From contig JADZGB010000003.1 in assembly GCA_020854105.1 (NCBI GenBank), positions 160,392 to 224,391 of the forward strand: a stretch of 64,000 bases of DNA, read 5' to 3'. How positions within the stretch are numbered: the first letter of the stretch is position 1; each line of letters opens with the position of its first letter. The stretch is from Burkholderiales bacterium (lineage in GTDB: Bacteria; Pseudomonadota; Gammaproteobacteria; Burkholderiales; SHXO01). Positions 6,495-23,816 of the stretch are shown piece after piece. The notes below the pieces were generated by a model. That model worked only from the letters and a program-made list of their open reading frames with translations, was not told the origin of the DNA and did not search any database. The translations under genes were made by a program, and so were the position numbers.

Positions 6495-6516
6495 CACCGG
6501 CACCGCCAGTTCGGAT

Positions 6517-8747: not shown

Positions 8748-8762
8748 TACTGATCTCTCGAT

Positions 8763-9293
8763 CTACTGTGCGGCAAGCATGTGAAGTCTTGTGAAGTACA
8801 CGGCCCGCCGATAGGACTCGGACCCATAGTAATGGTGTTGTCTTCCTTGCCATAGTAGCGACCACACAACGCGCGCCAGTTGTCCCACGCGGCCAATCAC
8901 TTCAGCCTCAATAATCAACGTCATTCGATCGCCATCGGCCAATCCCAGATCCGTTCGAAGGTGGACTGGACTTACGATCTCGCACACGTGCAGTGGACAT
9001 CCGCGCCATCGATAGATCCATACAGGCCTCTCGGATCCGACCAGTTGCGCTTTCCACAGATATCTCAAGTCCCTGTCGAAGCGAACGGACTTCTCCGTCA
9101 CGAGCCGCAATGGCTCTTCTAGAACTAAGTTCAAAGAACCCGGCTGCAGATCGACCCCTACGAGTGCTCGCAACTCTCGGCTCTTCTCATTCATGATCAC
9201 CCGGGCCTGCGAGCGTCCCGACGCGACCACACCCTCTACGGTCACTCTGGCCGCCAACCCTCTGAGGTCGCGGCTAGCGGGGCGCGGAGGCAT
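8763..9293 (-). CDS. Protein resembling archaeal CTP-dependent riboflavin kinase (RibK/DUF120 fold)
   Basis: About 176 residues from ATG 9293; ATG 9308 is an alternative. The frame overlaps the previous gene by about 20 bases. Two blocks recall archaeal RibK. The first is VTVEGVVASGRSQARV leading to LVGVDLQPGSLNLVLEEP, like its EG-x-V-x-SG and PGTLN-x-x-L. The second is HVCEIVSPVHLRTDLGLADG plus D, like EIIAP-x-x-LRE-x-x-LKDGD near the C-terminus. The nucleotide-binding Gly-rich loop of true RibK (GLGEG) is altered to SGRSQA, so riboflavin kinase activity is doubtful. The fold similarity is from memory, not a search. Its place in a glycan operon suggests a sugar- or CTP-linked role. Confidence 0.6.
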   Translation of the reverse strand: MPPRPASRDLRGLAARVTVEGVVASGRSQARVIMNEKSRELRALVGVDLQPGSLNLVLEEPLRLVTEKSVRFDRDLRYLWKAQLVGSERPVWIYRWRGCPLHVCEIVSPVHLRTDLGLADGDRMTLIIEAEVIGRVGQLARVVWSLLWQGRQHHYYGSESYRRAVYFTRLHMLAAQ

Positions 9294-10569
9294 TGCAAAG
9301 CATTCCATCTCGAAACTTGTCTGAGCGCCACATTTCCTGGACAAGCCAAGTTGCAGCATCTTCTGGCCCTCGAGCGACAGTCTCTAGCTGGATCCACTTC
9401 GCGCCCCTCTTCTCGAACACCCGTGCGAGACTGTTGGACTGGTTTACCCTTTCTCGCGCAGAATCAGCGGTCAGTTCCCCAGGTCGTCTCTGCACCAGCA
9501 CTTCTATCGGCGCACTCACTTCCACTACCACATCCGGGAGTGGAAGCACCCACGAATACAGCCTCGATAGGTACTTCCCCTTTACTCCAAGAAAGGCGTA
9601 TTCGGGATATCGATCCACGAGCACGACACAATTTCGCGCAAGGAGGGTTCGTCTAAGCCGCCGGATAAGAAACTCTAACGGGAATAGCCAACCGAGGCAG
9701 AGCGCAAGCGCCGCATACCGCATCGGTAACCGGAGGCCCTCCGCGAACTTCCAGAACCGGTACACACCCGGAAGCATCCACTCGTTCGCCCCCAATCCCG
9801 CGTACAGACGAATAGCGGGTAGTTCGAGGGCTTTCTGAACTGCGTCCACCAAGGTCGACTTGCCCGCCCCATCGCATCCGACAAACAGCACGCAGTAAGC
9901 AGCCGGTCCCCATCGACGTGCAATTGTCGGTCTTACCTTCTTCTCGATCTTTGGCTTCTGGAAGGGGAAATGCTTATCTATGGCGTGACGAATTCTCCGA
10001 GGTGACGACACCCGATCGAACTCGCAGGCCGTTATGGCATCCGTGATGTCTCTGGCTGTGCGCACTCGATCCGGGAAACTTGCTAGCGAAGGGAGAAACT
10101 GTTCGATGTAGCGGCAAAGCTGCTCCAGTTGCCGGCGCTCCAGAGACATCCTTTCTACGAACGCACATTTTGCTGCGTATAGCAAGATCAGATGCCATGC
10201 CTCGGGGATTACACCCGACTCCGCCCGTACGGCTTTGTCCAGCGCCTCGGCTTGAAATGCAGCAATTCGATATGCGCTTTCTTGTTGATCCCAGAAGGCG
10301 AGCTCGAACTTCACGTGTAGACGTACAGGTCGCAGCCCAGGAACTTGTACGAAGTAGAAGAAATGGTGGGGATACTTGGTGGGTCTTGACTGTTGAAGCA
10401 CGCCTTTAGCCCGACAAAACGCTTCGAACTGTTCTGCGGCCGATAGCGGGATGTAGAGGTCCAGATCACCCCCCACACCGCCGGTGAACTCGGAAAGTAG
10501 AAGATACGGTACACCCTCAGACTCCAGCAATCCGAGTACTACAGCCTTTGCATGCTCTGTTCGATACAT
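9274..10569 (-). CDS. Fusion of a nucleotidyltransferase-like domain with a thymidylate kinase-like P-loop domain
   Basis: 431 residues in two parts. Residues 1 to about 200 resemble minimal nucleotidyltransferases: FTGGVGGDLDLYIP supplies a GG...DxD-like pattern and is followed by a helical region. From about residue 225, YCVLFVGCDGAGKSTLVDAV is a Walker A P-loop, CVVLVDRYPEYAFLG a DR-containing second motif, and RERVNQSNSLARVFEKRG a likely lid, as in thymidylate kinase-like proteins. Neither domain is near-complete enough to name a substrate. Codon use and GC are lower than in flanking housekeeping genes. It sits between a methyltransferase and the RibK-like gene, overlapping the latter. 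Possible role: activation or phosphorylation of a glycan substituent. Confidence 0.7.
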   Translation of the reverse strand: MYRTEHAKAVVLGLLESEGVPYLLLSEFTGGVGGDLDLYIPLSAAEQFEAFCRAKGVLQQSRPTKYPHHFFYFVQVPGLRPVRLHVKFELAFWDQQESAYRIAAFQAEALDKAVRAESGVIPEAWHLILLYAAKCAFVERMSLERRQLEQLCRYIEQFLPSLASFPDRVRTARDITDAITACEFDRVSSPRRIRHAIDKHFPFQKPKIEKKVRPTIARRWGPAAYCVLFVGCDGAGKSTLVDAVQKALELPAIRLYAGLGANEWMLPGVYRFWKFAEGLRLPMRYAALALCLGWLFPLEFLIRRLRRTLLARNCVVLVDRYPEYAFLGVKGKYLSRLYSWVLPLPDVVVEVSAPIEVLVQRRPGELTADSARERVNQSNSLARVFEKRGAKWIQLETVARGPEDAATWLVQEMWRSDKFRDGMLCNASAPR

Positions 10570-10593
10570 CTCTGCGGACTAATGAACGGAAAT

Positions 10594-11388
10594 TCACCAC
10601 GTTTTTCTTGCTGCAACTATCGACAGGTGGCCCACGACACCAGCCAGTAGACTATCCGTCCCACTTTCTACTCTTTCGACTAACCTGTTCGGCATGGCGA
10701 TGTTCAATATCTGGCTGACCTTCCAGACCAGAGCAAGCTCTTGTTTGATGCCCGATGCGGACTGGATGCGAGAAATCCGCTCGACTTGGAAGTTGCAGGC
10801 GGTTAACTTCGTCAATACGTCCTTATCGTCCAAAAGGAACTGATAGAAGTCCGCCGGTTCATGCTGGAAAGCGGGAAGCGTTCGGTAAACGCGGCATTTC
10901 GCTTTGAACCTTCTTAATGGCGACATGCTGGGATACGTCAGGAACAGATAGCCGCCTGTTTTTAAGACCCGCCACGCCTCTCGCAGCAGCATGTCGTACC
11001 CGCCCCAGAAATGCTCGATGACGCCGAAGGACCAGTACCCATCGAAGCTGCTCTCGTGGAACGGAAGCGCGAACACATTGCCGACCTGAACCTCGAAGTC
11101 CGGCCGCACACGGTTGATACGTCGCACGGTGTTCTCGGCGAAGTCGATCCCGGTTACAGCGTATCCTGCATCGACCAACGCCGCCACTTTTCCCGCGGCG
11201 CCGCAGCCGCCCTCGAGGATACTAGCGCCGGCCGGTAGATATGCGGCAGTCAAATCGACGAACGGACGGACCGATTCCAGGTTGTAGAGGCCGATCTGTT
11301 CGTCCTGCCACTTCTCGTCCCAGAATTTCGCGGTTGCGCTGTGACCTGTCTGGATGACGCAGCGTCGATTCCTATCGTAGTACTTCAC
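10594..11388 (-). CDS. Class I SAM-dependent methyltransferase
   Basis: 264 residues. The SAM-binding motif I is ASILEGGCGAAGKVAALVD, followed by acidic motif II (VTGIDFAENTV), FALPFHESSFDGYWSFGVIEH and AWRVLKTGGYLFLTYPS, the standard Methyltransf_11 order. The target could be a sugar hydroxyl, an amino group or a lipid headgroup; nothing here decides it. It lies 24 bases after the kinase fusion start and 12 bases before the preceding gene in transcription order. GC is low for this replicon: the 60-base line at 10681 has 31 G/C. Confidence 0.85.
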   Translation of the reverse strand: MKYYDRNRRCVIQTGHSATAKFWDEKWQDEQIGLYNLESVRPFVDLTAAYLPAGASILEGGCGAAGKVAALVDAGYAVTGIDFAENTVRRINRVRPDFEVQVGNVFALPFHESSFDGYWSFGVIEHFWGGYDMLLREAWRVLKTGGYLFLTYPSMSPLRRFKAKCRVYRTLPAFQHEPADFYQFLLDDKDVLTKLTACNFQVERISRIQSASGIKQELALVWKVSQILNIAMPNRLVERVESGTDSLLAGVVGHLSIVAARKTW

Positions 11389-11400
11389 TGCAGATCCCTG

Positions 11401-12627
11401 TCAATTGAGAATCGCATCCGCGACGCTGCGTATGTTCTCGGCCATGCCCTGCCCCGGCAGAATCCATTCGTACAGTCTCTGCGAATGCTCGCGCGCCGAT
11501 ACCTCGACGCGGTCCCAGTCGGCGGTGATGCGATGGAGCTGATCCGTGAGCGGGGAGTCGTCGTCGATGACGTGGTTCGAGCGGCGCACGCCGAGAACGT
11601 GCCGCTGCGTGTGCAGGTGCGCCTGCAACCGTGTCAGCATAGGCAAGGCCTCAGGCGCACGAATCTCCATCTGGGCTACAGGCAAGCCGAACAGCGCTGC
11701 GTCGAATGCGAACGTCGTCGCGATGTTCACCGAGATCCGCGCCTTGCTCAACTCCGCGATCCGCGCCGCATTGTACTCGGCCGTCAAGAGAATGTTCTCC
11801 TTCCTGTTGTTTTCGAAGTAGGCGCCGATGCTGACTTCTCCAGCCCGCCCGAGTGGGTCCAGCTCGCCGGGCACGCCGTTGGGCTTCGGCTTGACGAAGA
11901 CTGGCAGTCCGATCCTGGAGCATGCGCCGATCAAAGCGGAAGCAAAGAGCATCTCTTCGCGGAAGAGCTGCGGGTCCGAAGCGGAGCTCGACGTGAAAGG
12001 ATAGAGAACGTGGTGACCCAACGGGCGACCGGCGCGGGTGCAGAGGACTTCGGGATCGAGCAAATAGTCGAAGACGAACGGGTAGCTGATGCCGAAATGT
12101 TCGTCTCCCTGGCAGGCCCTCCAATCGTCAGCAAGATCGCCATTCCAGGTGAACACGAGGTGTGACTGATAGCCGGTGGCCCCGAACTTGGCCGGGTGAT
12201 CCCAACTTCCCGCAACTGTATACACCTGCACATCACGCGCGCAGAGGAGCCAGGGGACATTGCTCTTGGTGACGTGAACCACCTTTCGCGTTGGCAGCGG
12301 GTTCCGCAGCACGGCGGAAACCCCAAGCTTGCAGGCGGCATTGCGCTTGCGATTGCGCGCCTCTCCTCTGTTCACGACCGCACTTATCCGGCTTATCGCA
12401 GCGTGCGCCAGGCGTGCAGCACGATGCCGCCCCTCGAGCTCTTCGAGTGAGATGATGCTCCGGCCACGCCGAAGGATCTGATGAAACAGGCGCGCGACAG
12501 GCTGACTCACCACGAAGTGAACGGGCACCTCCCTGCTGAGCAGCTCCTCGATGTAGGGCGCCGCCGTCGAGAACTGCAGGGGCCACCGGCCGACGAAGGT
12601 CACGCCCTCCATGTACTGACGCTTCAC
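11401..12627 (-). CDS. Uncharacterised surface-carbohydrate protein, possibly a GT-B-like transferase
   Basis: 408 residues; I do not recognise the family with confidence. The sequence has no transmembrane helices or signal peptide. Features that recall CDP-glycerol glycerophosphotransferase or sialyltransferase-like GT-B proteins are VYTVAGSWDHPAKFG, HLVFTWNGDLADDW and a C-terminal block, ISVNIATTFAFDAALFGLPV, resembling the S/T-rich donor loop before a final helix. The gene overlaps the NeuA-like CMP-sugar synthetase gene by 4 bases, which suggests coupled translation. It is a good candidate for the enzyme that transfers the CMP-activated sugar. That is an inference from position. Confidence 0.65.
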   Translation of the reverse strand: MKRQYMEGVTFVGRWPLQFSTAAPYIEELLSREVPVHFVVSQPVARLFHQILRRGRSIISLEELEGRHRAARLAHAAISRISAVVNRGEARNRKRNAACKLGVSAVLRNPLPTRKVVHVTKSNVPWLLCARDVQVYTVAGSWDHPAKFGATGYQSHLVFTWNGDLADDWRACQGDEHFGISYPFVFDYLLDPEVLCTRAGRPLGHHVLYPFTSSSASDPQLFREEMLFASALIGACSRIGLPVFVKPKPNGVPGELDPLGRAGEVSIGAYFENNRKENILLTAEYNAARIAELSKARISVNIATTFAFDAALFGLPVAQMEIRAPEALPMLTRLQAHLHTQRHVLGVRRSNHVIDDDSPLTDQLHRITADWDRVEVSAREHSQRLYEWILPGQGMAENIRSVADAILN

Positions 12628-13361
12628 GCTGGGCCCTGCTCACCCTGAGAGGCGAGCGCGTCTGCCATGAGCAGGCCGGCAAGGCGCAAGTCCAGCGGCT
12701 CGTCGATGTTCACGACGGGTCGCTCGATGATCACCGCGGCACAGTTGCGCTCGACGATCGCTCCGTGTTCGAAGAGCGTTTCGCGTCGCACGGCGTAGCA
12801 GATCCCGTTCCGGTGGTAGTAGGCGGGGATGGTCTGCCGGATGGAGTGGCGGGCACCCTCCGGCAGGTAGAAACCGATGCGGCCCTCGGTGTCGAGGACG
12901 AGAGTCTTGTGGGGCGTGTAGTGTGCAGGCGTCCTACTGACGGTGGCTGCCGCCTCGTGCCCATTCAGCATCAGCGCGGCGATCGTGCGCTCGAGATCGG
13001 CCACGCTGCGAAGCGGACTGGTGGGCTCGAGCAGAAGCGAGCAGTCGAAGCGCACGCCGTAGTGTCGCTCGGACTGGGTCCAGGCATGCCGCCACATGTC
13101 GGCAGAGCTGGAGCGATCTCCAGCGAGGTCGACCGGACGCATGAACGGCACGTCGATGCCGCAGGCGCGCCCTTCGGAAGCGATCTCTTCGTCGTCCGTG
13201 GACAGTACGACGTGATCGATCCACGAAGCCGCGCGTGCCACCCTTGACGCCCAGCCGACCAGCGACACCCCCTCGATCCGCGCCAGATTCTTGCGCGGGA
13301 TCGACTTACTGCCCCCTCGTGCCGGGATCACCGCCAGCACCTTCATCCCGTCCCACGTCAT
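12624..13361 (-). CDS. CMP-nonulosonate cytidylyltransferase (NeuA/LegF/PseF family)
   Basis: 245 residues from ATG 13361, chosen because it forms an ATGA overlap with the preceding gene; an internal ATG at 13346 gives MKVLAVIPARGGSK directly. The family's CTP-binding block IPARGGSKSIPRKN is intact, followed by VVLSTDDEEIA, LLLEPTSPLRS and NIDEPLDLRLA. The reaction is CTP plus a 2-keto-3-deoxy-nonulosonic acid giving the CMP-sugar and pyrophosphate. With the NeuB- and NeuC-like genes in the same operon it supplies the activated acidic sugar for the surface glycan. Which nonulosonate is made is not determined. Confidence 0.88.
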   Translation of the reverse strand: MTWDGMKVLAVIPARGGSKSIPRKNLARIEGVSLVGWASRVARAASWIDHVVLSTDDEEIASEGRACGIDVPFMRPVDLAGDRSSSADMWRHAWTQSERHYGVRFDCSLLLEPTSPLRSVADLERTIAALMLNGHEAAATVSRTPAHYTPHKTLVLDTEGRIGFYLPEGARHSIRQTIPAYYHRNGICYAVRRETLFEHGAIVERNCAAVIIERPVVNIDEPLDLRLAGLLMADALASQGEQGPA

Positions 13362-14365
13362 GGCGAGACCGTCACGCTCGATCCATCGGCGCTGCTGCGC
13401 CGTATTGCCTCGATGACCGTCAGCACCCGTAGGCCATCGGCAAGCGAGCACGTCGGCTGCGCGCCGTCTCCGTCGAGCAGTGCGAGAAACTCCCTCGCCA
13501 CGTCCACGAACATGTCGTTGCGCTCGCACTCGAAGGCCTCTATTCGATCCCAGCCCTCTGGCTTCGTCCCGATCGCGATCTGGTTGGGCGCCGCGGTCCA
13601 CAGCATCGAGCCGAATTCGCCGACGAAGCGGATGAATTTCTCGTGGGGCCTGCCGTACAGATCGAGATGCAAGCTCACGCGCAGACCCCCTGGATATGCC
13701 ATGAGCACGTCCACGTTGTCGTCGGTCTCGATCTCCAAACTGCTGAGCTTGTCGATGCGTCCAGACAGCTTCTCCGGCATTCCGAACATCCACAGGGCAA
13801 GGTCGATCCAGTGGCTCTCATCGAGAAGGGCACCCCCGCCCTCCGTGCTGCTCGCCATGAAGAAGTCCTGGTATCGCTCCCACGGGTGCCAGTCGGCAAG
13901 ATGTGCCGACATGTGGAACTGTACGTGGCGCAGTTCCCCGATCACGCACGCGTCCAGCAGTTCGCGCACGCGGCGCAGCGGCGGCCACCAGCGCCAGGTG
14001 TAGCCCAACAGCACGGGGACGGACTCAGCTCGAGCGCCCGCTTCCAGGCGGGCCGCGGAGCCAAGGTCCGGCGACACCGGCTTCTCCAGCAGCACCGGGA
14101 TGCCCGCGCGCAAGGCCGCCAGCGCTTGATCGACGTGCACGTGGGGAGGCGAACAGATGACCACCCCATCGAATCGGTCGGCACCCAGCGCCGCGCCGAT
14201 CTCCGGGTAGCCGGCGTGCGCCTTGGCCTCCCGCGCGAGCTCCTGGCGCCGCTCGGCACGAGGATCCACGCACGACACGCTGCAGCCGAGCGCGGAGAAA
14301 TTGCGCGCGTGCCGCCTGCCAACGCTGCCACTGCCGACGATGAGAATGTGCGGGGCCTGGTTCAT
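13358..14365 (-). CDS. Gfo/Idh/MocA family oxidoreductase
   Basis: 335 residues. The N-terminal dinucleotide fold, ILIVGSGSVGRRHARNF, is followed by VVICSPPHVH and the family's catalytic-lysine block VLLEKPVSPD. The C-terminal substrate domain includes GALLDESHWIDLALWMFG, where an acidic/His pair is normally catalytic. These enzymes oxidise or reduce pyranoses or sugar nucleotides. The gene overlaps the formyltransferase gene and the NeuA-like gene by 4 bases each, so it probably acts on the same sugar before or at activation. Related genes occur in nonulosonate loci, but substrate is unknown. Confidence 0.85.
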   Translation of the reverse strand: MNQAPHILIVGSGSVGRRHARNFSALGCSVSCVDPRAERRQELAREAKAHAGYPEIGAALGADRFDGVVICSPPHVHVDQALAALRAGIPVLLEKPVSPDLGSAARLEAGARAESVPVLLGYTWRWWPPLRRVRELLDACVIGELRHVQFHMSAHLADWHPWERYQDFFMASSTEGGGALLDESHWIDLALWMFGMPEKLSGRIDKLSSLEIETDDNVDVLMAYPGGLRVSLHLDLYGRPHEKFIRFVGEFGSMLWTAAPNQIAIGTKPEGWDRIEAFECERNDMFVDVAREFLALLDGDGAQPTCSLADGLRVLTVIEAIRRSSADGSSVTVSP

Positions 14366-15171
14366 GCGAACCCTTCATCGCGGATCGGCCACCGCGCATC
14401 GTCCGCCGCACGGTTGGCGAGGTACCGACTCAGCATTCCGCTGTCGAGATTCGACCACATGCGGCGCACGGCATCTGCATGGAAATCGCTGCGGCGGTAG
14501 ACCTTTCCGATGCTGAGGTCCTGTCCTGCCGGCTGCAGGCTCCCCTGCGCGTAACGCCCCAGGCTGACGGCGAGCGCGCCGACCCCTGCCACGATTGCCT
14601 TGATGCCCAGTTCGTGCGCCCGATCGTCGGCTTCGGGCACCGGTCGCACCTGCGCCAGCACCGCACCCGCATCGACTTTTTGCACGGCAAGGTGAATCGT
14701 GCAGCCCACGCAGGCGGGAACGCCATCTACCAGGGGCCAGAAGTTGGTGCCCGCGCCTCGGTAATAGGGTGACAGCCCCAGATGCATGTTCACCATCCGT
14801 CCTTCGTACATCGAGAGCAGGGGTGGACGTAGGATGCCTGTCCCATAGAGGACAATGAAGTGCGGCGCTTTCTGCTCGATCCAGTTTACGGCACGGGGTC
14901 CATTGATGTCGTCCTGCAGCAGTTCGAAGCGGTCGACAGCAGGGAAATCGCACTCGCCAAGCAGCCGCCGTTCGACCTCCGCGCGCTCGCGCAGATGCTT
15001 GTCGATCACCTCACGATCCGCCTCCTCCTGGACGGTCCGCTCATCGACAGCGCCTCGCTTGTTCTGCGACACGATCCCAACCAGGTTCAGCGCACCCGCC
15101 AATCGCTGAGCGACGAAACGATGCCGCCTGGAGTCGGCGGTCAGCAGCAGGACGCGCGGTTGGGGACGCAT
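14362..15171 (-). CDS. Formyltransferase-family protein (Formyl_trans_N)
   Basis: 269 residues from ATG 15171, 4 bases after the deacetylase stop; the ORF-track start lies inside that gene. The fold's catalytic set is visible: NMHLGLSPYYRGAGTN carries the Asn and His of the N-x-H motif, and VQKVDAGAVLAQ carries the Asp. It begins RVLLLTADSRRHRF like methionyl-tRNA and UDP-4-amino-sugar formyltransferases, but lacks an obvious OB-fold C-terminal domain. Such enzymes in glycan loci place an N-formyl group from N10-formyl-THF on an amino sugar. An amino group for it could be exposed by the adjacent deacetylase. Target unproven. Confidence 0.82.
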   Translation of the reverse strand: MRPQPRVLLLTADSRRHRFVAQRLAGALNLVGIVSQNKRGAVDERTVQEEADREVIDKHLRERAEVERRLLGECDFPAVDRFELLQDDINGPRAVNWIEQKAPHFIVLYGTGILRPPLLSMYEGRMVNMHLGLSPYYRGAGTNFWPLVDGVPACVGCTIHLAVQKVDAGAVLAQVRPVPEADDRAHELGIKAIVAGVGALAVSLGRYAQGSLQPAGQDLSIGKVYRRSDFHADAVRRMWSNLDSGMLSRYLANRAADDARWPIRDEGFA

Positions 15172-15175
15172 TCTG

Positions 15176-16156
15176 CTAGCACTGGAACCAAGCTGCCACG
15201 GGGAGACGGTGCGGCAGGTCTGCGAGAGACCAGGCAGAAGCGTTTCCACCGGGCATGTCGCTGTTGGAGAAGCGGGCGAGCAACAGAGGGCGCTTCAGAT
15301 CGAGATTGGTGGCGCGCTCCATCGTGAAGCCGAAGTTCATCCCCGCTTCCATGGAGAGGCGTGCCACCTCTTCGGACACGGCGGTGCGTCCCCCGTACGG
15401 ATAACTGACGCCCTGGATGCGACTGCATCCCCAAGCGGTGAGCAGGTCGAGGGACAGGGTGAGTTGGATGCTTGCCTCGTGCGCGGTCAACTGCGCGAGC
15501 GGCAGGTGGTCGTGCCCGTGCGTGCCGATGCAGCCCTCGTGCGCCAGCGCAGCGACCATGGCCATCGACATGTAGAGCGACTCCGACACGCTCGCCTCCT
15601 CGCTTCCGAACATCCTGCGAAAGACGTTCGCGATGAGCGCATCCCGCTGCGCTTCACCCAACACGAAATTGAGCAGGTATTTCACGCGCGCGGTGGGCGC
15701 TTCGTCGTATCGATATTGGCGAACGGCCTGGTCATGCAAATCGTCCGGAATCGCGCAATCGAACTGCGCCAGCATCCCCTCGACCTGCAGCGCCATTTCT
15801 TCCGGGGGCGTGTGCGCCCGCACCATGTGCAGCTGATGCACACGGCTGACGGTGCGCTCGGCGATGGGTCGGGTATTGACGTAGAAGATCGCCGGAATTC
15901 CCTTGCGCTGGAGAATCGGCCATGCATGGTCGTACTGTTCACGCAGGCCGTCATCAAAGGTCACGACCAGGGCATTGCGGGCAAGCGAGCGCGCTCCCAT
16001 CACTGTCGAGCGGATGTCGTCGCCCGACACGTACGTGAACACCCTGCTCAGTTGGTCGAGCTGGTTCTCGAACTCGCGCGGGGTTACGCCGTGTATGCCG
16101 GGATACGGCGCGGAATACTCGGGCCTGACGTAATGGAAGTTGATGGCGGTCAGCAT
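15176..16156 (-). CDS. Polysaccharide deacetylase (NodB homology/CE4-like)
   Basis: 326 residues from ATG 16156, 7 bases after the upstream stop. The NodB motif 1 is present as VVTFDDGLREQYD, motif 2 as GTHGHDHLPLA (HxxxH), and a Pro-rich motif 3 as GVSYPYGGR. There is no signal peptide or membrane anchor, so it should act in the cytoplasm on a small substrate such as an N-acetylated sugar or nucleotide sugar, not on exported polymer. Context: the thiamine-diphosphate enzyme precedes it and the formyltransferase follows, consistent with removal of an N-acetyl group and replacement by another acyl group. That scheme is inference. Confidence 0.82.
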   Translation of the reverse strand: MLTAINFHYVRPEYSAPYPGIHGVTPREFENQLDQLSRVFTYVSGDDIRSTVMGARSLARNALVVTFDDGLREQYDHAWPILQRKGIPAIFYVNTRPIAERTVSRVHQLHMVRAHTPPEEMALQVEGMLAQFDCAIPDDLHDQAVRQYRYDEAPTARVKYLLNFVLGEAQRDALIANVFRRMFGSEEASVSESLYMSMAMVAALAHEGCIGTHGHDHLPLAQLTAHEASIQLTLSLDLLTAWGCSRIQGVSYPYGGRTAVSEEVARLSMEAGMNFGFTMERATNLDLKRPLLLARFSNSDMPGGNASAWSLADLPHRLPVAAWFQC

Positions 16157-16163
16157 CGGGGAT

Positions 16164-17702
16164 TCAGCGTATTCCTTCGCACATCCGCTCGTATGGCTCG
16201 GGCTGGAATTCGACCTCGACATAGCCGGGCCCCCGCGTCTTGGACCACTGCGCAACGGCATCGGCCAGCCGGGAGGCATCGCGCACGTGCCAGGCAGGAA
16301 GTCCGAAGGCCTCCATCACTTTCTGCCAACTGGGATGGGCGATGTCGATCGGCGTACGGGTCAAGCCGTCCTTGAGCGCGCGCGTCGCCACCGAACCAAA
16401 GCGACCATCTGTCATGAGCACGAACAGAATCGGCAATCCACGCTCCACTGCGATACGAATTTCGCCGAGGTACATCGCAATGCCGCCGTCACCAGCCACG
16501 GCCACGACCGTGCGCGACGGATCGTGCATCGCAGCACCGATCGCCATCGGCACGGAGGTGCCCATGTAGCGTCCCTGGGCCGAGAACAGGCACCCGTTTA
16601 CATGCGAGGCGCGCCAAACGTGCTCGCCTATTGTGCAGAAGTAGCCGGTATCCATGACCAGCTGTACATCCCGGCCCAAACACTTCTCCATTACCTGGAA
16701 GGCGGCACCCGGGAGGAACCCCCGGACCAAGGTCTGATCCAGGCGTTGAAGGCACGACTGTAGCGGGTCCAGTCCCCAACGCTTTGCACGCAGTAGCTCC
16801 CAGATCCGTTCGTCGATGTCTGCCGCACGAGCGGCAAAGCCGAATGCTTCGATACCCGGAGGCCCGGCCGCATCGATGTTCACCGCCGGACAATGAAAGG
16901 GGCGGGTGGAAAGCAATTCGTTCGGCCGCAGGCCCAACCCCAGGACCAGATCCGCCTGCGGCAATACGCACCGCTCTGCCGTGAGCTCCAGTCCCACGCC
17001 GGTGTATACGCCCGCGGCATGCTCCAGGCGTTCGTCCACCACACCCTTTGCGGCGGCAGTGCAGAAAACCGGCATGTTCAGACGCGCCAGATCTGAACCC
17101 CATCCTCGGCGCACCGCCAGACTGCCCGCGATGACCACCGGCCGTCGCGAGGCGGCTAGCAGGGTCAGCAAGTCTTCCGACTGGTCGCGCACATGGGCAG
17201 GAGAAGGAACTGGCTCCTCCGTGGCTTCGGCACCGGCGAGTTCGAGGATCACCGGTCCTGGAACTTCCGACTCAGCCCACCCGGCAAGCGCTCGGAAATC
17301 AGGGCCGCGCTGGGATAGCACCCGAGCCCCCTTTGCCACGGCGCCGGTCAACAGGACATGGTCGAGCCGCTTGTGTGCCTTCTCGGGTCCCGCCGATCGC
17401 GGGTAGGCCTCGGTGAGGGCCAGCATCGGCCAGGCATCGAGGCTCGCCACCGCAAGGCCCGGCACCATGTTCGCGAGCCCCGGCCCCTTGATGCTGTACG
17501 CGACGCCGCTTCGGCCTGCAAGACGGCCGTCCGTCGCGGCCATGATGGCAGCGCTGCCTTCGAAGTAGGTCCGGACCGGATCGACGCCGCGCTTCTCGAG
17601 TTCATCGAGAACAGACAGGATCGCCCCGCTGCCCGTAATGCCGTAGACGTAGCGAACGCCGTGACCGGCGATATCCTCGGCGAGCCGCGCGAACTCGCTC
17701 AT
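16164..17702 (-). CDS. Thiamine-diphosphate-dependent enzyme (acetolactate synthase-like)
   Basis: 512 residues from ATG 17702, which overlaps the dehydrogenase stop by ATGA. The three-domain plan of the IlvB/benzoylformate decarboxylase family is visible. The N-terminal PYR domain has YVYGITGSGA and the activating Glu in YFEGSAAIMA. The middle domain has RRPVVIAGSLA. The C-terminal PP domain has VVAVAGDGGIAMYLGE. The usual Asn pair ending the Mg/ThDP motif is TD here (LFVLMTDGRFG), which is unusual. It is not ordinary acetolactate synthase: no regulatory subunit and a glycan-operon location. It could make or decarboxylate a 2-keto acid used as an acyl or side-chain donor. Confidence 0.85.
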   Translation of the reverse strand: MSEFARLAEDIAGHGVRYVYGITGSGAILSVLDELEKRGVDPVRTYFEGSAAIMAATDGRLAGRSGVAYSIKGPGLANMVPGLAVASLDAWPMLALTEAYPRSAGPEKAHKRLDHVLLTGAVAKGARVLSQRGPDFRALAGWAESEVPGPVILELAGAEATEEPVPSPAHVRDQSEDLLTLLAASRRPVVIAGSLAVRRGWGSDLARLNMPVFCTAAAKGVVDERLEHAAGVYTGVGLELTAERCVLPQADLVLGLGLRPNELLSTRPFHCPAVNIDAAGPPGIEAFGFAARAADIDERIWELLRAKRWGLDPLQSCLQRLDQTLVRGFLPGAAFQVMEKCLGRDVQLVMDTGYFCTIGEHVWRASHVNGCLFSAQGRYMGTSVPMAIGAAMHDPSRTVVAVAGDGGIAMYLGEIRIAVERGLPILFVLMTDGRFGSVATRALKDGLTRTPIDIAHPSWQKVMEAFGLPAWHVRDASRLADAVAQWSKTRGPGYVEVEFQPEPYERMCEGIR

Positions 17703-18637
17703 CCTCCGAGGACCTGCTGAATCTTCTCGGCTGCCCGCCGGCAGACGATGCGCACGGCATCGGGGCTGAACCCGCCGCAATGAGGCGTGATGATGAGGTT
17801 ATCGTGCGTCCTGGCGTACTCGACGAGCGGATGATTCGACACATCGGGCTCTCCCTCCAGCACGTCAACTCCCGCCGCCGCGATACGCCCGTCCGTGAGC
17901 GCATCACGTAGCGCGACCTCGTCCACCAACGCGCCACGTGATGTGTTGACGAATATCGCGCCGTGCTTGAACTGGTCGAGCAATTGCTTCGATACCATGC
18001 CCCTCGTCTCCTCCGACAGGTGCACGTGGATCGAGACGAAGTCGGACGAGGCGACGAGCGACTGGAGCGATCGGCGTTCGACGCCTGGCGGAAGCGTCGC
18101 CTGGTGAGGATCGTGGGCGAGCACGGACATGCCGAATGCCTGGCCATAGCGCGACATCCATCCGCCGATGCGGCCGCACCCGATCAATCCCAGCACCTTT
18201 CCCTTCAGCATCGTGCCCGGAAACTCCTCGCGCACCCAGCGCCCCGACTCGGTATGCCGCAAGGCGCCTTTCAGATTGCGCGCGCATGCCATCAGCAGTG
18301 CCCACGACAACTCCGCGGCCGGCGTGATGTTCCGCAGCAGGTCGGGATCCTCCTTCAACGTTCGCACCGGCACGTTGCGCTGCGCGAGCACCCGCCGAGC
18401 GATGTGATCCGAACCCGTTGTCGCACAGCTGACGATCTTCAAGCGCGGGGCGGTCTGCACCATGGCGTCGGAGATGCGGGTCTTCATGGACGCATCGAGG
18501 AGCGCATCGGCCTCCTTCAACGCGGCGGCGACCGCGTCGTCATTTGCTTCCACATGCCGCACCAGCCAGGGCGGCGACAGGACCGTGCGCGCAGCTTCCA
18601 ATCCCTCCTGGCTGCCGAGATAGATCACCAGTGCCAT
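17699..18637 (-). CDS. D-isomer-specific 2-hydroxyacid dehydrogenase
   Basis: 312 residues. Family blocks: LKGKVLGLIGCGRIGGWMSRY (NAD-binding GxGxxG), HVHLSEETRGMVS, FVNTSRGALVDE with the substrate-binding Arg, VDVLEGEP with the Glu, and NLIITPHCGGFS with the catalytic His. It reduces a 2-keto acid to a D-2-hydroxyacid, or the reverse, using NAD(P)H. Translational coupling to the thiamine-diphosphate enzyme gene (4-base overlap) suggests the two act on the same small keto acid. Phosphoglycerate dehydrogenase activity is possible, but there is no ACT domain and the context points to glycan tailoring. Confidence 0.88.
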   Translation of the reverse strand: MALVIYLGSQEGLEAARTVLSPPWLVRHVEANDDAVAAALKEADALLDASMKTRISDAMVQTAPRLKIVSCATTGSDHIARRVLAQRNVPVRTLKEDPDLLRNITPAAELSWALLMACARNLKGALRHTESGRWVREEFPGTMLKGKVLGLIGCGRIGGWMSRYGQAFGMSVLAHDPHQATLPPGVERRSLQSLVASSDFVSIHVHLSEETRGMVSKQLLDQFKHGAIFVNTSRGALVDEVALRDALTDGRIAAAGVDVLEGEPDVSNHPLVEYARTHDNLIITPHCGGFSPDAVRIVCRRAAEKIQQVLGG

Positions 18638-18670
18638 GCTGAGCCTTGACCGTTCATCGCGCTTTGCGCT

Positions 18671-19588
18671 TCAGTTCGCCTTCGCCAGCCAGAAGTAAAG
18701 ATAGTCGCCCGTGCCAGCCTGCTCCAGGCTCGCTTGCCAGGATCGTTCCATGACCGACGGGACCTCGGGTAGCGGATCCGCGCCACCCGGGCGCTTGTCA
18801 CGCAGCCAGCGCAGGGCGTTGGACAAACCGAAACGGTGCACGCATCGCGCTTCGATCACACGCAACCCGGCTCGTTGCGCGCACACCTGGAAGGAATCCA
18901 CGTCGAAGTACCAGCGATGCACCGTCCGGTAGAAGAAGGCTGGGTAATCCGCGGGCAGCAGATCCATGAGCACGTCCCTGCGATTGGGCGTACTCACGAG
19001 TGCGCGCCCGCCAGTCCCCAGAAGATGCGCGATCCCGAGCAGAAAATCGAGGGGGTCAGACACGTGCTCGATCACGCTGAAGCTGAACACGAAGTCCGCG
19101 TCGCCCATCCCAGCTTCGACCGCCTCAGGGCAGGTCGAAAAGGCCTGGTGGCCTCGTTCCCGCAGCGAATCGTGATACCCGACGCAGGGCTCGATCGCCA
19201 CCGTCGTGCATGCCAGTCCGGCAACGTGATCCAGGAAGCTACCCGCGGCACAACCGACATCGACTACCGTGCGGCCTCGCAGGTTCTCGGGCCAGAGCAC
19301 CTTGAGGTTCGCCAACTGCAGTACGTCGTGCGAGGCGAGGTACTCTCTGGCCGCCTCTCCTGCTGCGAGCAGCTCGCGATAACGGGCCGACACGTAGATG
19401 TCGCCACCATGACAGTGCTGTTCCGACAGTCTCTCCACCGAGCAGCCGGCGCAGCGAGCAACCACCGCGGAGTCAGGCGACAGACGCCCGAACGCACCAT
19501 CGCGTACCGCACCGGTGCGCACCGGACGCCACTCGACGGATCCGCAGATCTCGCACGGTGCGAACCCGATGTCCGCGACTCCCGTCAT
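18671..19588 (-). CDS. SAM-dependent methyltransferase with N-terminal zinc-ribbon-like Cys motif
   Basis: 305 residues from ATG 19588, preceded by AAGGAG; the ORF-track form starts inside neuC. The N-terminus has FAPCEICGS and ARCAGCSVE, two CxxC pairs that can bind zinc, as in sugar C-methyltransferases. The SAM fold follows: VVDVGCAAGSFLDHVAGL, FVFSFSVIEHVSDPLDFLL and GGRALVSTPNRRDVLMD, then a C-terminal YFWLAKAN strand. Methyltransferases of this type modify sugars or nucleotide sugars. It lies 34 bases after neuC and 33 bases before the dehydrogenase gene, so it likely modifies the nonulosonate or its precursor. Confidence 0.82.
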   Translation of the reverse strand: MTGVADIGFAPCEICGSVEWRPVRTGAVRDGAFGRLSPDSAVVARCAGCSVERLSEQHCHGGDIYVSARYRELLAAGEAAREYLASHDVLQLANLKVLWPENLRGRTVVDVGCAAGSFLDHVAGLACTTVAIEPCVGYHDSLRERGHQAFSTCPEAVEAGMGDADFVFSFSVIEHVSDPLDFLLGIAHLLGTGGRALVSTPNRRDVLMDLLPADYPAFFYRTVHRWYFDVDSFQVCAQRAGLRVIEARCVHRFGLSNALRWLRDKRPGGADPLPEVPSVMERSWQASLEQAGTGDYLYFWLAKAN

Positions 19589-19622
19589 CGCCTCTCCTTG
19601 CTGCTCGGCATCCCGCGATTCC

Positions 19623-20789
19623 TCATGCGGGAAGATAGTTGAGGCGCTTCTCGATGCTGAGCGGCACCTCAGCGAGCACGTCTGCGATCCTGGCACCTGC
19701 CGACCCATCACCGAACATGAGCGACCGCGGATAACGACCATGATCGAGTTGGCGGAGGATCGCCGCTTCGATTGCGCGGGCATCATGGGGCGCATCGACC
19801 ACGTTCGATGCGCGCTCCCGGCCTCGCTGCCGGCTGCCGATGTTCACGCACGGCACGCCGAGAAAGGCCCCCTCCCGCAATCCCGAGGATGAATTCCCCA
19901 CCAGACAGTGAGCGTTGTTGATCAGCCGCGCATAGTCCTCGGGGCTGAAGTTGCGGTAGAAGTGCATGTAGTCGGGCCGGTGGCGCTCTCGGAACACACG
20001 CAAGCCCTTGGCTACGTCGTCCGAGCCTGCATCGACGTTGGGCCACAGCCATGCCACCTGCAGACCGCGCTTGCCCATGGCTGCGACCGCCTGCAGTGTC
20101 TCGTTGACCTGCTTGAAGCCCTCGCCGTACTCCGTGGTCACCGGGTGCTGCAGGACCACCATATAGGGTTTGGCGGGGTCGAGCGGTGCACCGACGCCCT
20201 TGTAGCGCTCCAGCAACTCATAGGTGATCGAAAGGTCCGCTTCAGCGAGCAAGTCGATGGCAGGACAGCCCGTCAGGTGGATGGCGCCCGGATCCTCGCC
20301 CATGCGGATGAGGTACTCGCGGGCGCGCTCGGTCGCCGGAAAGTGGATGTGGGCCAGTTTCGTGATTGCGTGCCGGACGCTCTCGTCGATGGAGCCTGTC
20401 ACCTCGCCGCCCTGAGTGTGCGCGAGCGGGATGTTCATGTAGCTCGATGCCACCGCAGTGGCGAGAGTCTCGAAGCGATCCGCGACAGTGAGGACGACGT
20501 CGGGCTTCAGATTCTCGAAATGAGTTGCCAACTCCACGATCGCCAGCCCGGTGGACTTGGCCATCGTCGTCGGCGTCTCACCCTCGACAATCGAATGGAC
20601 CACGCTGTCCGGCTCGAAACCGTCGGCGCGGATGATCTTGATCGCCTCTCCGAAGCGATACAGCAGCGCAGATGCACCGACGATGAGCTGGAGTCGGAGG
20701 CCCGAATGGGCCTTCGCGGCACGCAGGAAACTCTTGATACGCCCGTAGTTGGCGCGGCTGTTCACCACGACGCAGATCTTGCGGGTCAC
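19623..20789 (-). CDS. Hydrolysing UDP-N-acetylglucosamine 2-epimerase (NeuC/LegG-like)
   Basis: 388 residues. NeuC-family blocks: VVNSRANYGRIKSFL at the N-terminus, LTVADRFETLATAVA, IPLAHTQGGEVTGSIDESVR, HAITKLAHIHFPATERAREY, LTGCPAID and VGNSSSGLREGAFLG. These enzymes hydrolyse a UDP-HexNAc with inversion at C2 to give free ManNAc or a derivative, the precursor for NeuB-type condensation. It overlaps the neuB-like gene by 4 bases. No LegB/LegC-type dehydratase or aminotransferase gene for a diamino precursor is in the window, so the substrate may be UDP-GlcNAc itself or come from genes elsewhere. Confidence 0.88.
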   Translation of the reverse strand: MTRKICVVVNSRANYGRIKSFLRAAKAHSGLRLQLIVGASALLYRFGEAIKIIRADGFEPDSVVHSIVEGETPTTMAKSTGLAIVELATHFENLKPDVVLTVADRFETLATAVASSYMNIPLAHTQGGEVTGSIDESVRHAITKLAHIHFPATERAREYLIRMGEDPGAIHLTGCPAIDLLAEADLSITYELLERYKGVGAPLDPAKPYMVVLQHPVTTEYGEGFKQVNETLQAVAAMGKRGLQVAWLWPNVDAGSDDVAKGLRVFRERHRPDYMHFYRNFSPEDYARLINNAHCLVGNSSSGLREGAFLGVPCVNIGSRQRGRERASNVVDAPHDARAIEAAILRQLDHGRYPRSLMFGDGSAGARIADVLAEVPLSIEKRLNYLPA

Positions 20790-21832
20790 GACGCGAGGTC
20801 CTCCCAGTTAAGCAACCGGCCCGGCACGACGTCGCGGCGCAGTTTCATGCCGACAAGCTTGGCGAGTTGATCCGCGGGTATGCCGGTCGCCGGCTTCTTC
20901 AGCGTCAGCATATCGGCGGTCAGCGCGGTGCCGGCAGGAAGCGCCCGGGAGGGTGCGATGCTCTTTCCGAAGGTGTTGCGCATGGCGGACAACCCGTCCG
21001 CCATGGCGTCCTTGTCCACCGGGTGCGCGTCCATCAGCGCGAAGCTGTCCCTCGCATCCCGGACGCGAGAGAACTGCTCGAACGTCACGGAAGCCGGCAC
21101 GTCGGGGCCGAAGACGCGGGGGTGGAAGGTGACGTGAAGCTCGACGATGTCACAACCCCGGGCGATGGCCGCGATTGCCGGGTACTCGCTGGCCGAGTGG
21201 TCGGACAGTCCGATCGGACAATCATAGCGGCGCCTCAACTCGTCGAGCACGTTCAGCCCGACTTCCTGCAAAGGCGTCGGATACTTGCTGGTGCACTGAA
21301 ACAGCACGAGCTGCGCACCTCGGGCGCGCAGGCGAGCGAACGCCTCGTCGATCTCTTCCCAGCGGCTCATGCCCGTACTGAGCAGGATCGGCCCGCCCGC
21401 TCCGAGCATCGCCTCGAGCAAATCCAGCGACTTCACTTCGCCAGATCCGACTTTCCACCCCGGAACGCCGAGTCTCGCGAGCATCTCGACTGCCATCACG
21501 CTGAAGGGCGAGCTCAGGAATACGAGGTTACGTGCTCGCGCATGCTCCGCAAGGCCAGCCCACTGCGCCTCGGAGAACTCCATTCGGCGCCAGTACGCGA
21601 ATCGCGTCTCGTCCTGTCGCGAAAATCTCACCCGGAATGGTTCGTCGAGGGTCGATTCGGCGGCAGCGATATGGGTCTGGAACTTGATTGCATCCGCACC
21701 AGCGTCAGCGGCCGCATCGATGAAGGCATGCGCCATTCCGAGCGAGCCATCGTGGCTCTGGGAAACCTCTGCGACCAAGAACGTGCGGTGACCGGGACCA
21801 ACCGGCTGATCACCGAGGAGGATCGTATTCAT
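20786..21832 (-). CDS. N-acetylneuraminate synthase family protein with SAF domain (NeuB-like)
   Basis: 348 residues: a TIM-barrel NeuB domain followed by an SAF (antifreeze-like) domain near the C-terminus (SIAPSRALPAGTALTADML). Core blocks include LVAEVSQSHDGSL, DAIKFQTHIA, KVGSGEVKSLDLLEA, LLSTGMSRWEEI and IGLSDHSASEYPAI. The metal-binding histidines of LSDHS and of the E-x-H-x-T block remain, but the usual EKH is ELH and the usual GPDH is GPDV (HPRVFGPDVPAS). This hints at an altered substrate. The reaction expected is condensation of a mannosamine-type sugar with phosphoenolpyruvate to a nine-carbon acid. It follows the flippase gene by 13 bases. Confidence 0.87.
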   Translation of the reverse strand: MNTILLGDQPVGPGHRTFLVAEVSQSHDGSLGMAHAFIDAAADAGADAIKFQTHIAAAESTLDEPFRVRFSRQDETRFAYWRRMEFSEAQWAGLAEHARARNLVFLSSPFSVMAVEMLARLGVPGWKVGSGEVKSLDLLEAMLGAGGPILLSTGMSRWEEIDEAFARLRARGAQLVLFQCTSKYPTPLQEVGLNVLDELRRRYDCPIGLSDHSASEYPAIAAIARGCDIVELHVTFHPRVFGPDVPASVTFEQFSRVRDARDSFALMDAHPVDKDAMADGLSAMRNTFGKSIAPSRALPAGTALTADMLTLKKPATGIPADQLAKLVGMKLRRDVVPGRLLNWEDLAS

Positions 21833-21845
21833 CGTCGATCAGGAA

Positions 21846-23645
21846 TCATGCAGCCGAGGCGACCTGGACCATCTCGCGGAAGCGAGGGTTACGGGCGACG
21901 AGGTCGCCGAACGTACCCTGGGCCGCCACCTGGCCTTTGTCCAGCAGGAAGATGTGATCACATCCCTGCACCGTGGAGAGGCGGTGGGCGATCACGATCA
22001 CCGTCACCTCGTTGTGCAGATTATGCACCGCTTCCATGACGGCCTGTTCCGTCACGTTGTCCAGCGCGCTGGTCGCCTCGTCGAGGATCAGTACCTGCGG
22101 GCGGTGGTAGAGCGCCCGCGCGATGCCAATACGCTGCCGCTGCCCGCCGGACAGGCGTACGCCGCGTTCGCCGACGACGGTTTCGTACCCCCGAGGCAGC
22201 TCCCGCATCACGAACTCATGCAGGTTGGCGATGCGCGCGGCGTGCTCGACTTGTCCGATATCGATCTGATCCACAGGAACTCCGAACGCGATATTCGAGG
22301 CGACGCTGTCGTCGGTCAGGTAGATGCTCTGCGGCACGTAGCCGAGGATGCGCTGCCACGATCGCAGGTTGGCCTTCGTGATCGTGACTCCATCCACGCG
22401 CACCTGACCCGACTGGGGCCACAACAACCCCAGCAACACATCGACTGTCGTGGTCTTGCCCGAGCCCGTGGTGCCGACGAGTCCGATGGTGGCGCGTGCC
22501 GGAATGATGAGGCTCAGCTCTTGCAGTACGGTACGGCTCGACTTCGGATAGGCGTAGACGATTCCGTCCAGCACGATATCGCGCTCGAGCTTCATTGCAT
22601 CACGGCTTGCTTCGGACTCCGCCGGAGGAGACCCGAGCGCCATCAGATCGGCGTGGATCGCATCCAGCGCGGGACCGGCGAAGCGCAGCGTGGACAGATG
22701 GGCGTAGACCTGCTGAATGGCGGGCATCAGCCTATAGCTCGCCAAAGCATAGAGGCCGATGATGGGGAGGGCCCCCTGCAGCCCCCCGGCGGTGCGCATC
22801 AGATAGAGGACCACCGCCAGCATGCCGCCGAAGGCCAGGATCTCCAGGAGATAGCGTGGCAGCTGTTTCGCCAACTGGGCAGTCGTCACCTGCTGCGCGT
22901 AGCGGTGAGCGGGGGCCTCGTAGCGTTTGGCGACGATGCGCTCGAGGCCGGAGATCTTCACTTCCTTGATCCCGCCAAACGCCTCCGCGAGCGTCTTGAA
23001 CAGCAGCTGTCGCGCCTCGACCCGCTCCTTTCCCAGCCGTCCCAGTCGCTGCCGCAGCAGTAGGTAGATAAGCCCATATCCAATCCCAAGGCCAAGCGTG
23101 ACGCACAGAGCGAGAAAAGGATCGGCGACTACGAGCAGCACCAGCAGAGCGAGCGCGACCGCCGCCTGCGCCACGAGTTGCATGAATGGTATCAGCGCGT
23201 TGCGAATCACCTCGTGCACTTCGGTGAGGACCACCTTGCCGAATTCGGCACTGTGGCGATCGAGGAATGCCTCGTACGGCTGGTGGAGATAGGCTGTTAC
23301 GAGTCGCTTGCCCAGCGAGTACTCGCGCATGTGCGTGTAGCGCAGCAGGGCCCAGGTCGTCATCGCCTTGAATGCAATGGACAGTACCAGGGCGGCGAAC
23401 ACCAATACCCCGAGGAAGAAGAGGAACGCGTCCGGATTCGTGAAGCCCAGGCCCTCGTAGGCCGCGGAAAGGTAGTGGTTATCGCTCACCACGTCGGGAT
23501 TGGCAGCGACTGAGATGAAGGGCATGATCGAGGCCACGCCGACCGCGTCGAGCACACCCATCACCAGGATCAGTCCGACCAGCAGGTATGCATGGCGGCG
23601 CTCGCGGGCCGACAGCAGCTGCAGGATCTTTCGGATCACGTCCAC
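21846..23645 (-). CDS. ABC transporter, fused membrane and ATPase domains (PglK/MsbA-like flippase)
   Basis: 599 residues from GTG 23645, preceded by GTGGAGA; the ORF-track start is about 55 residues earlier in low-complexity sequence. Residues 1-320 form an exporter-type membrane domain with about six helices (first AYLLVGLILVMGVLDAVG). The ATPase has Walker A VGTTGSGKTTTVD, signature VRLSGGQRQRIGIARAL, Walker B VLILDEATSALD and H-loop VIVIAHRLSTV. As the first gene of the glycan operon it probably flips a lipid-linked oligosaccharide across the inner membrane, as PglK does. No Wzx-type flippase is seen in the window. Confidence 0.88.
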   Translation of the reverse strand: MDVIRKILQLLSARERRHAYLLVGLILVMGVLDAVGVASIMPFISVAANPDVVSDNHYLSAAYEGLGFTNPDAFLFFLGVLVFAALVLSIAFKAMTTWALLRYTHMREYSLGKRLVTAYLHQPYEAFLDRHSAEFGKVVLTEVHEVIRNALIPFMQLVAQAAVALALLVLLVVADPFLALCVTLGLGIGYGLIYLLLRQRLGRLGKERVEARQLLFKTLAEAFGGIKEVKISGLERIVAKRYEAPAHRYAQQVTTAQLAKQLPRYLLEILAFGGMLAVVLYLMRTAGGLQGALPIIGLYALASYRLMPAIQQVYAHLSTLRFAGPALDAIHADLMALGSPPAESEASRDAMKLERDIVLDGIVYAYPKSSRTVLQELSLIIPARATIGLVGTTGSGKTTTVDVLLGLLWPQSGQVRVDGVTITKANLRSWQRILGYVPQSIYLTDDSVASNIAFGVPVDQIDIGQVEHAARIANLHEFVMRELPRGYETVVGERGVRLSGGQRQRIGIARALYHRPQVLILDEATSALDNVTEQAVMEAVHNLHNEVTVIVIAHRLSTVQGCDHIFLLDKGQVAAQGTFGDLVARNPRFREMVQVASAA

Positions 23646-23816
23646 GTTGGTTGTCTCCACTGGCGGGACTGGCTGTACCGCCGTTTCTCGCCGGACGGTG
23701 GCGAGGCGGTCGGAAGCGCTGGCGCGCACCACGCGGCGACGCGACGGCGCGCGATCATAGCACGCCGGCGGCCTCATCCGGCCGCTCGAACATTGCGAAA
23801 CGCAGCCGGGCACGGC

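Follow-up and report, generated by a model that had tools for sequence, protein, structure and literature searches.

A run of nine tightly coupled genes in a Burkholderiales bacterium probably encodes nonulosonate biosynthesis beyond the standard sialic, legionaminic and pseudaminic acid gene sets, with a product that has probably not yet been described. The genes occupy positions 12624-21832 on the minus strand of a 64,000-nucleotide stretch of contig JADZGB010000003.1 (assembly GCA_020854105.1), referred to below as the window. The unusual core of this operon is an always-adjacent pair of genes coding for a D-2-hydroxyacid dehydrogenase (2-HADH) and a thiamine diphosphate (ThDP) enzyme. A preliminary description of the window had placed the gene set outside the described sialic, legionaminic and pseudaminic acid pathways, and indeed no matching locus or description of this set was found in the open-access literature (subscription papers and preprints were outside the search).

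Gene content and conservation of the module

Neighbouring genes in the run either overlap by 4 bp or are separated by gaps of 4-34 bp. The frame of NeuC-, NeuB- and NeuA-like genes around six tightly coupled ones, as outlined in the preliminary description, was confirmed in coordinates, families and spacing. The sixth inner gene, unnamed in the title of that description, encodes an S-adenosylmethionine (SAM) methyltransferase. The operon and its gene-family assignments are secure. It consists of the following genes:

20786-21832, minus strand: NeuB-type nonulosonate synthase; core
19623-20789, minus strand: NeuC-type hydrolysing UDP-GlcNAc 2-epimerase; core
18671-19588, minus strand: SAM methyltransferase with N-terminal CxxC...CxxC (PF13489); core
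17699-18637, minus strand: 2-HADH (PF02826, 3e-51); core, partner of the ThDP enzyme
16164-17702, minus strand: ThDP enzyme, acetolactate-synthase-like (PF02775/02776/00205); core
15176-16156, minus strand: polysaccharide-deacetylase-family protein (PF01522, 2e-13); accessory
14362-15171, minus strand: formyltransferase (PF00551, 3e-11); accessory
13358-14365, minus strand: Gfo/Idh/MocA oxidoreductase (PF01408/PF22725); core
12624-13361, minus strand: CMP-nonulosonate cytidylyltransferase (PF02348, 4e-13); core

The probable true starts are 13361 (cytidylyltransferase), 15171 (formyltransferase), 16156 (deacetylase), 17702 (ThDP enzyme), and 19588 (methyltransferase).

When one genome per species was scanned, a single close relative of the ThDP enzyme emerged, from an uncultured Desulfovibrio (locus L006), and whole-genome searches of the Desulfovibrio class and phylum added two genomes, G836 and G1787. 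Seven of the window genes, namely those for NeuB, NeuC, the cytidylyltransferase, Gfo/Idh, the methyltransferase, 2-HADH and the ThDP enzyme, recur as orthologues in two distantly related genomes, those of L006 and G1787 (36-67% identity), so the gene set is more than a chance assembly. All seven are present at one locus in L006: 2-HADH (54% identity), ThDP enzyme (44%), NeuB (55%), NeuC (66%), Gfo/Idh (58%), cytidylyltransferase (51%), and methyltransferase (36-37%). In G1787, a genome of the same phylum, they are distributed over three contigs. One carries NeuB-NeuC-2-HADH-ThDP (L018), a second has Gfo/Idh-cytidylyltransferase adjoining an ABC transporter gene (L024), and on the third the methyltransferase gene is terminal, with a pseudaminic acid locus on the same contig (L025). 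Only the 2-HADH-ThDP pair is visible in G836, on a 3.3 kb contig (L011). Across all four loci, the window included, identities are 54-62% for 2-HADH and 42-47% for the ThDP enzyme. NeuB is 56% identical to its L018 orthologue, and NeuC 66-67% identical to those in L006 and L018; the respective values are 55-58% for Gfo/Idh and 51-54% for the cytidylyltransferase (L006 and L024), and 36-40% for the methyltransferase (L006 and L025).

The arrangement of these genes is conserved as well. NeuB and NeuC are neighbours in three of three loci, as are Gfo/Idh and the cytidylyltransferase, and 2-HADH and the ThDP enzyme in four of four (L011 included). The ThDP enzyme, 2-HADH and NeuB, the combination for which the preliminary description proposed a neighbourhood search, occur together in L006 and in L018 of G1787, where the pair adjoins NeuB-NeuC. 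We are highly confident that this is a conserved seven-gene nonulosonate module with the 2-HADH-ThDP pair as its signature.

The three contigs of G1787 could not be joined, as their ends do not overlap. The same ~206 bp opens two of them, C66 and C12 (L018 1-206 and L024 1-206), immediately preceding NeuB in L018 and a second 2-hydroxyacid dehydrogenase gene in L024; this repeat probably broke the assembly. Genes for an HpcH/HpaI aldolase, a sulfotransferase and the second 2-hydroxyacid dehydrogenase (L018 6450-8175, L024 160-2139) possibly indicate a further product variant. The pseudaminic acid locus of L025 appears to have an unusual tailoring set of its own after PseB/PseC/PseI (7944-12074), made up of ATP-grasp, enolase-superfamily, flavodoxin-like, and TIM-barrel proteins as classified by eye.

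The module is rare. The host genome was the sole scorer above strict thresholds in samples of 369 genomes of its class, 399 of its order, and 399 of its phylum. Two of 348 genomes of the Desulfovibrio class exceeded these thresholds, and two of 395 in the corresponding phylum scored strongly. These counts are lower bounds, since few candidates per genome were scored in the large samples. Two loci with more distant ThDP matches (L019 and L020, ~208 bits), which served as negative controls, had no module genes nearby. Searches of plasmids and phages returned only distant matches to the ThDP enzyme, 2-HADH and Gfo/Idh, together with NeuB relatives whose loci, once opened, lacked the module, and no module was found in a scan of viral contigs.

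Contrary to what had been supposed, the tailoring genes do not act as one set. The ThDP, 2-HADH, Gfo/Idh and methyltransferase genes are present in the two other loci, but the deacetylase was not detected in L006, L018, L024 or L025, nor was the formyltransferase in the other module loci. This suggests that the latter two perform an accessory N-acyl swap. The deacetylase displays TFDD and HxxxH motifs and the formyltransferase, which overlaps Gfo/Idh by 4 bp, has the Asn-x-His and Asp catalytic residues, all as read from the sequence; the formyltransferase is also weakly similar to PseJ (6ci2/6ci4) and ArnA. We give about an even chance that the two enzymes exchange N-acetyl for N-formyl in the host genome. 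N-formylation has precedent in described nonulosonates. Halorubrum produces 5-N-formyl-legionaminic acid and has a formyltransferase gene within the locus (PMC6137143), and NeuAc islands of Geobacillus carry the formyltransferase fmt1 (PMC5109656). As in Halorubrum sp. PV6, the formyltransferase of the window, with its predicted catalytic residues, lies inside a locus with NeuB and NeuC; that locus, however, has a full legionaminic acid pathway (LegB/C/H), and no deacetylase, ThDP enzyme or 2-HADH is among the genes named in the available part of its description (PMC6137143).

Such precedents would also fit a plain locus for 5-N-formylneuraminic acid made up of NeuC, NeuB, the cytidylyltransferase, the deacetylase and the formyltransferase, in which the ThDP, 2-HADH, Gfo/Idh and methyltransferase genes serve another sugar of the same glycan. 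We regard this as quite improbable, because the ThDP and 2-HADH genes travel with NeuB-NeuC in L006 and G1787 where the deacetylase and formyltransferase are missing, and the pair therefore belongs to the nonulosonate module.

Sugar backbone and comparison with described nonulosonate routes

NeuC scored 369.9 bits against TIGR03568, above the curated cut-off of 235.9, and its nearest solved structure is the human GNE epimerase (4zht), followed by the LegG-type enzyme 5xvs. Conversion of UDP-N-acetylglucosamine (UDP-GlcNAc) to N-acetylmannosamine (ManNAc) is therefore the likely first step, and NeuC points to a backbone likely derived from ManNAc. The cytidylyltransferase reached 120 bits against the PseF model TIGR03584 (cut-off 205.7); its nearest solved structures are synthetases of CMP-N-acetylneuraminic acid (CMP-Neu5Ac). 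The same three steps, NeuC-NeuB-NeuA, constitute canonical CMP-Neu5Ac synthesis. The operon differs from the canonical set in four extra core genes, including those for 2-HADH and the ThDP enzyme, and in its NeuB, which falls below the equivalog cut-off.

NeuB, the only one in the host genome, matches PF03102 (1e-59) and carries a SAF domain, but its 267 bits against TIGR03569 are below the Neu5Ac-synthase cut-off of 399.65. It has Lys at the position of Arg314 in Neisseria NeuB, which positions the N-acetyl group of ManNAc (PMC6795526). The low score and this replacement suggest that the substrate may be a variant of ManNAc. The same Lys is present in L006 and in the nearest relative outside the module, a plasmid-borne NeuB-NeuC-NeuA locus of Rhizobium sp. 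WL3 (L012; NeuB 43% and NeuC 53% identical). The 25 kb examined there contain no homologue of the ThDP enzyme, 2-HADH or Gfo/Idh, and Lys is thus not tied to the ThDP gene. Four uncharacterised proteins of ~450-510 amino acids are encoded directly upstream of NeuB in that locus (6149-11998).

One explanation built on these features is that 2-HADH and the ThDP enzyme together convert a 2-hydroxy acid, by way of the 2-oxo acid, to an aldehyde (oxidative decarboxylation) and feed an unusual aldehyde or aldose to NeuB, so that the backbone is not plain ManNAc. The sub-threshold NeuB with its Lys and the adjacency of the pair to NeuB-NeuC in L006 and L018 agree with it. We nevertheless consider it improbable: NeuC, which supplies ManNAc, is retained at 66-67% identity, the Rhizobium NeuB has the same Lys in a locus devoid of both partner genes, and the R314K variant of the Neisseria enzyme retains some activity (PMC6795526).

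The survey for genes of the legionaminic and pseudaminic acid routes modified one earlier statement, namely that LegB, LegC, PseB and PseC are all missing from the window. For LegC and PseC the absence extends further: no aminotransferase of either type was found in the whole host genome, which is rated 100% complete. The sole full-length DegT aminotransferase of this genome scores 233.6 against the PseC model (cut-off 423.5) and 195 against the LegC model (cut-off 420). Its partner is a UDP-GlcNAc-3-dehydrogenase-like gene, and we take this arrangement to be typical of GnnA-GnnB. A dehydratase of the PseB/FnlA family, however, is encoded in the window at 2136-3200, 10 kb from the operon (TIGR03589, 287 bits; cut-off 407.75).

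The lack of an LegC/PseC-type aminotransferase excludes the standard legionaminic and pseudaminic acid routes. An ordinary pathway of this kind with its remaining genes at other genomic sites, for which the shared NeuB/NeuC/NeuA families, the dehydratase and the sub-threshold PseF match could be cited, is already contradicted by this absence and is extremely improbable. Moreover, the L006 and G1787 genomes hold separate legionaminic or pseudaminic acid loci beside the module, which indicates that the module makes something else. Its product is, very probably, neither of these two acids.

The 2-HADH-ThDP pair and the proposed pathway

The ThDP enzyme has a catalytic Glu48 and a GDG motif that are invariant across four orthologues. 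By profile, its nearest solved structures are catabolic acetolactate synthases, e.g. 1ozf, so that by homology the enzyme appears closest to acetolactate synthases, i.e. decarboxylating C-C ligases. Also invariant is a Lys (Lys111 in the window) that our alignment matches to standard position 115, where ~81% of the ThDP superfamily has Gln (PMC3534367); this replacement suggests an acidic ligand. The predicted structure was too poor for use (predicted local distance difference test, pLDDT, 52.9). Two other ideas about this enzyme were dropped. A suspected peculiarity of the Mg-binding site (T/S-D-G for N-N) proved unremarkable, as catabolic acetolactate synthase has Asp there. A role as phosphonopyruvate decarboxylase was rejected, since genes of the phosphoenolpyruvate (PEP) mutase family are located on other contigs, with none in the window; the PEP-mutase Pfam model matches most control genomes.

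The catalytic Arg/Glu/His residues are retained in 2-HADH. Its motifs LDASMK and SCATTGSDHI, invariant in the four orthologues, presumably set it apart from phosphoglycerate dehydrogenase with its phosphate-binding motifs. The constant pairing of the two genes suggests that their products act successively on a 2-hydroxy/2-oxo acid.

From this gene content we infer the following pathway, including its substrates, its sequence of steps and the ligation. NeuC would turn UDP-GlcNAc into ManNAc, and NeuB would join ManNAc, or a derivative of it, with PEP. 2-HADH would govern whether a 2-hydroxy/2-oxo acid is in its reduced or oxidised form; the ThDP enzyme would decarboxylate the 2-oxo acid and ligate the carbon unit that is left to the sugar, with a ketone produced by Gfo/Idh as the most likely site. 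This would yield a nonulosonate with a carbon branch or an extended carbon chain, which the methyltransferase would cap; in the host genome, the deacetylase and formyltransferase would also change an N-acetyl to an N-formyl group. The cytidylyltransferase would CMP-activate the nonulosonic acid, and the neuraminic-type product would then enter a surface glycan. Ligation onto the sugar by a ThDP enzyme fed by 2-HADH is the reading we favour, but a tentative one, to which we assign a probability below even.

The nearest working analogy is provided by YerE and ErwE, ThDP enzymes of lipopolysaccharide (LPS) synthesis that join a decarboxylated 2-oxo acid to a keto sugar, with pyruvate or, in the case of ErwE, hydroxylated oxo acids as donors (PMC12247030). 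The analogy is one of family and of proposed chemistry. These enzymes are likewise acetohydroxyacid-synthase-like and encoded in surface-sugar clusters, and the ThDP enzyme of the window has the family features of the YerE type (thiamine pyrophosphate Pfam domains, catalytic Glu, GDG). YerE and ErwE, however, act on CDP-3,6-dideoxy-4-keto sugars, whereas the operon is a nonulosonate locus with 2-HADH. In G1787 the module run of L018 includes an HpcH/HpaI aldolase two genes after the ThDP gene, which fits the idea of a 2-oxo acid donor because this family makes 4-hydroxy-2-oxo acids.

Several points weigh against ligation onto the sugar. Simple decarboxylation, or the making of a small molecule, could be all that the ThDP enzyme does, and the ketone proposed as acceptor is hypothetical. 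Gfo/Idh may have no part in the ThDP step, as it accompanies cytidylyltransferases in loci without a ThDP gene; it is their neighbour in ordinary legionaminic acid loci as well (L006 389-1303; L013 4990-5925) and is therefore not unusual by itself. ManNAc may not be the NeuB substrate, to judge from the low score and the Lys for Arg314. The short-chain dehydrogenase/reductase (SDR) typical of YerE pathways is absent from the core, and the HpcH/HpaI aldolase occurs in only one of the three loci.

Alternatively, 2-HADH and the ThDP enzyme may make a small hydroxy or keto acid (lactate-, glycerate- or acetolactate-type), which would decorate an ordinary nonulosonate skeleton in acyl or ether linkage. 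Both families do act on 2-oxo/2-hydroxy acids, and there is a precedent in Shewanella, where the NeuB-like, ThDP and methyltransferase genes of sfmABCDE are required for modification of flagellin with a nonulosonate that has an O-methylated substituent, 236-264 Da in mass and thought to be nitrogen-free (PMC3765264); the module, too, has a methyltransferase. The sfmABCDE operon of Shewanella oneidensis, which we liken by gene families (PMC3765264), is thus an example of nonulosonate modification that depends on a ThDP gene, but with another partner set: it includes SDR and ATP-grasp genes where the present operon has 2-HADH, NeuC, Gfo/Idh and the cytidylyltransferase, and it works with PseB/PseC. 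No SDR or ATP-grasp gene occurs in 12624-21832. The L006 core likewise has no acyl-CoA ligase, acyltransferase or ATP-grasp gene of the sfm kind, and the formyltransferase is the sole acyl-type transferase in the window. This alternative is possible but doubtful. An acyl group that replaces acetyl, which the preliminary description expected from the ThDP enzyme and the dehydrogenase, is accordingly one option only, as the core has no identifiable gene for acyl activation or transfer.

Genomic setting and significance

Two further genes extend the operon past the limits drawn in the preliminary description:

21846-23813, minus strand: PglK/MsbA-like ABC transporter, likely a flippase (PF00005/PF00664); same run, upstream
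11401-12627, minus strand: family-less protein, possible glycosyltransferase; same run, overlapping the cytidylyltransferase by 4 bp

The ABC transporter gene, 13 bp upstream of NeuB, scored 332.6 bits against the PglK model NF050066, below its cut-off; a homologue (29% identity) adjoins Gfo/Idh in L024. The downstream protein had no match to Pfam or NCBIfam profiles, and its predicted structure (pLDDT 31.8) was too poor for use.

The GC content of the nine genes (0.63-0.67) is close to the window mean of 0.66 and falls to ~0.56 only from 11388 downwards. The lower-GC stretch at 7575-11388 (~0.56-0.57 vs 0.66) is possibly a recent acquisition; it encodes a methyltransferase, a glycosyltransferase and two proteins without clear families, one of which has a P-loop and a thymidylate-kinase-like C-terminus. 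At 2136-4066, the gene of the PseB/FnlA-family dehydratase (PF02719) overlaps that of an RmlD-like reductase by 4 bp. The two may form an N-acetyl-L-fucosamine-type or related amino-sugar pair of the same glycan locus.

Nonulosonates decorate bacterial surfaces and shape recognition by phages, hosts and immune systems. To our knowledge, all characterised nonulosonate pathways combine acyl tailoring with one of three routes to the backbone, and carbon branching is on record in LPS hexoses but has not been described in nonulosonates. We hold it to be rather unlikely that this rare, conserved module makes a sialic acid whose carbon skeleton is branched or extended by formation of a new C-C bond on the nonulosonic acid; if true, this C-C-bond chemistry would broaden the chemical range of known sialic acids and supply an enzyme for making them. 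The four-gene signature of NeuB-NeuC with 2-HADH-ThDP can be used to find the pathway in genomes.

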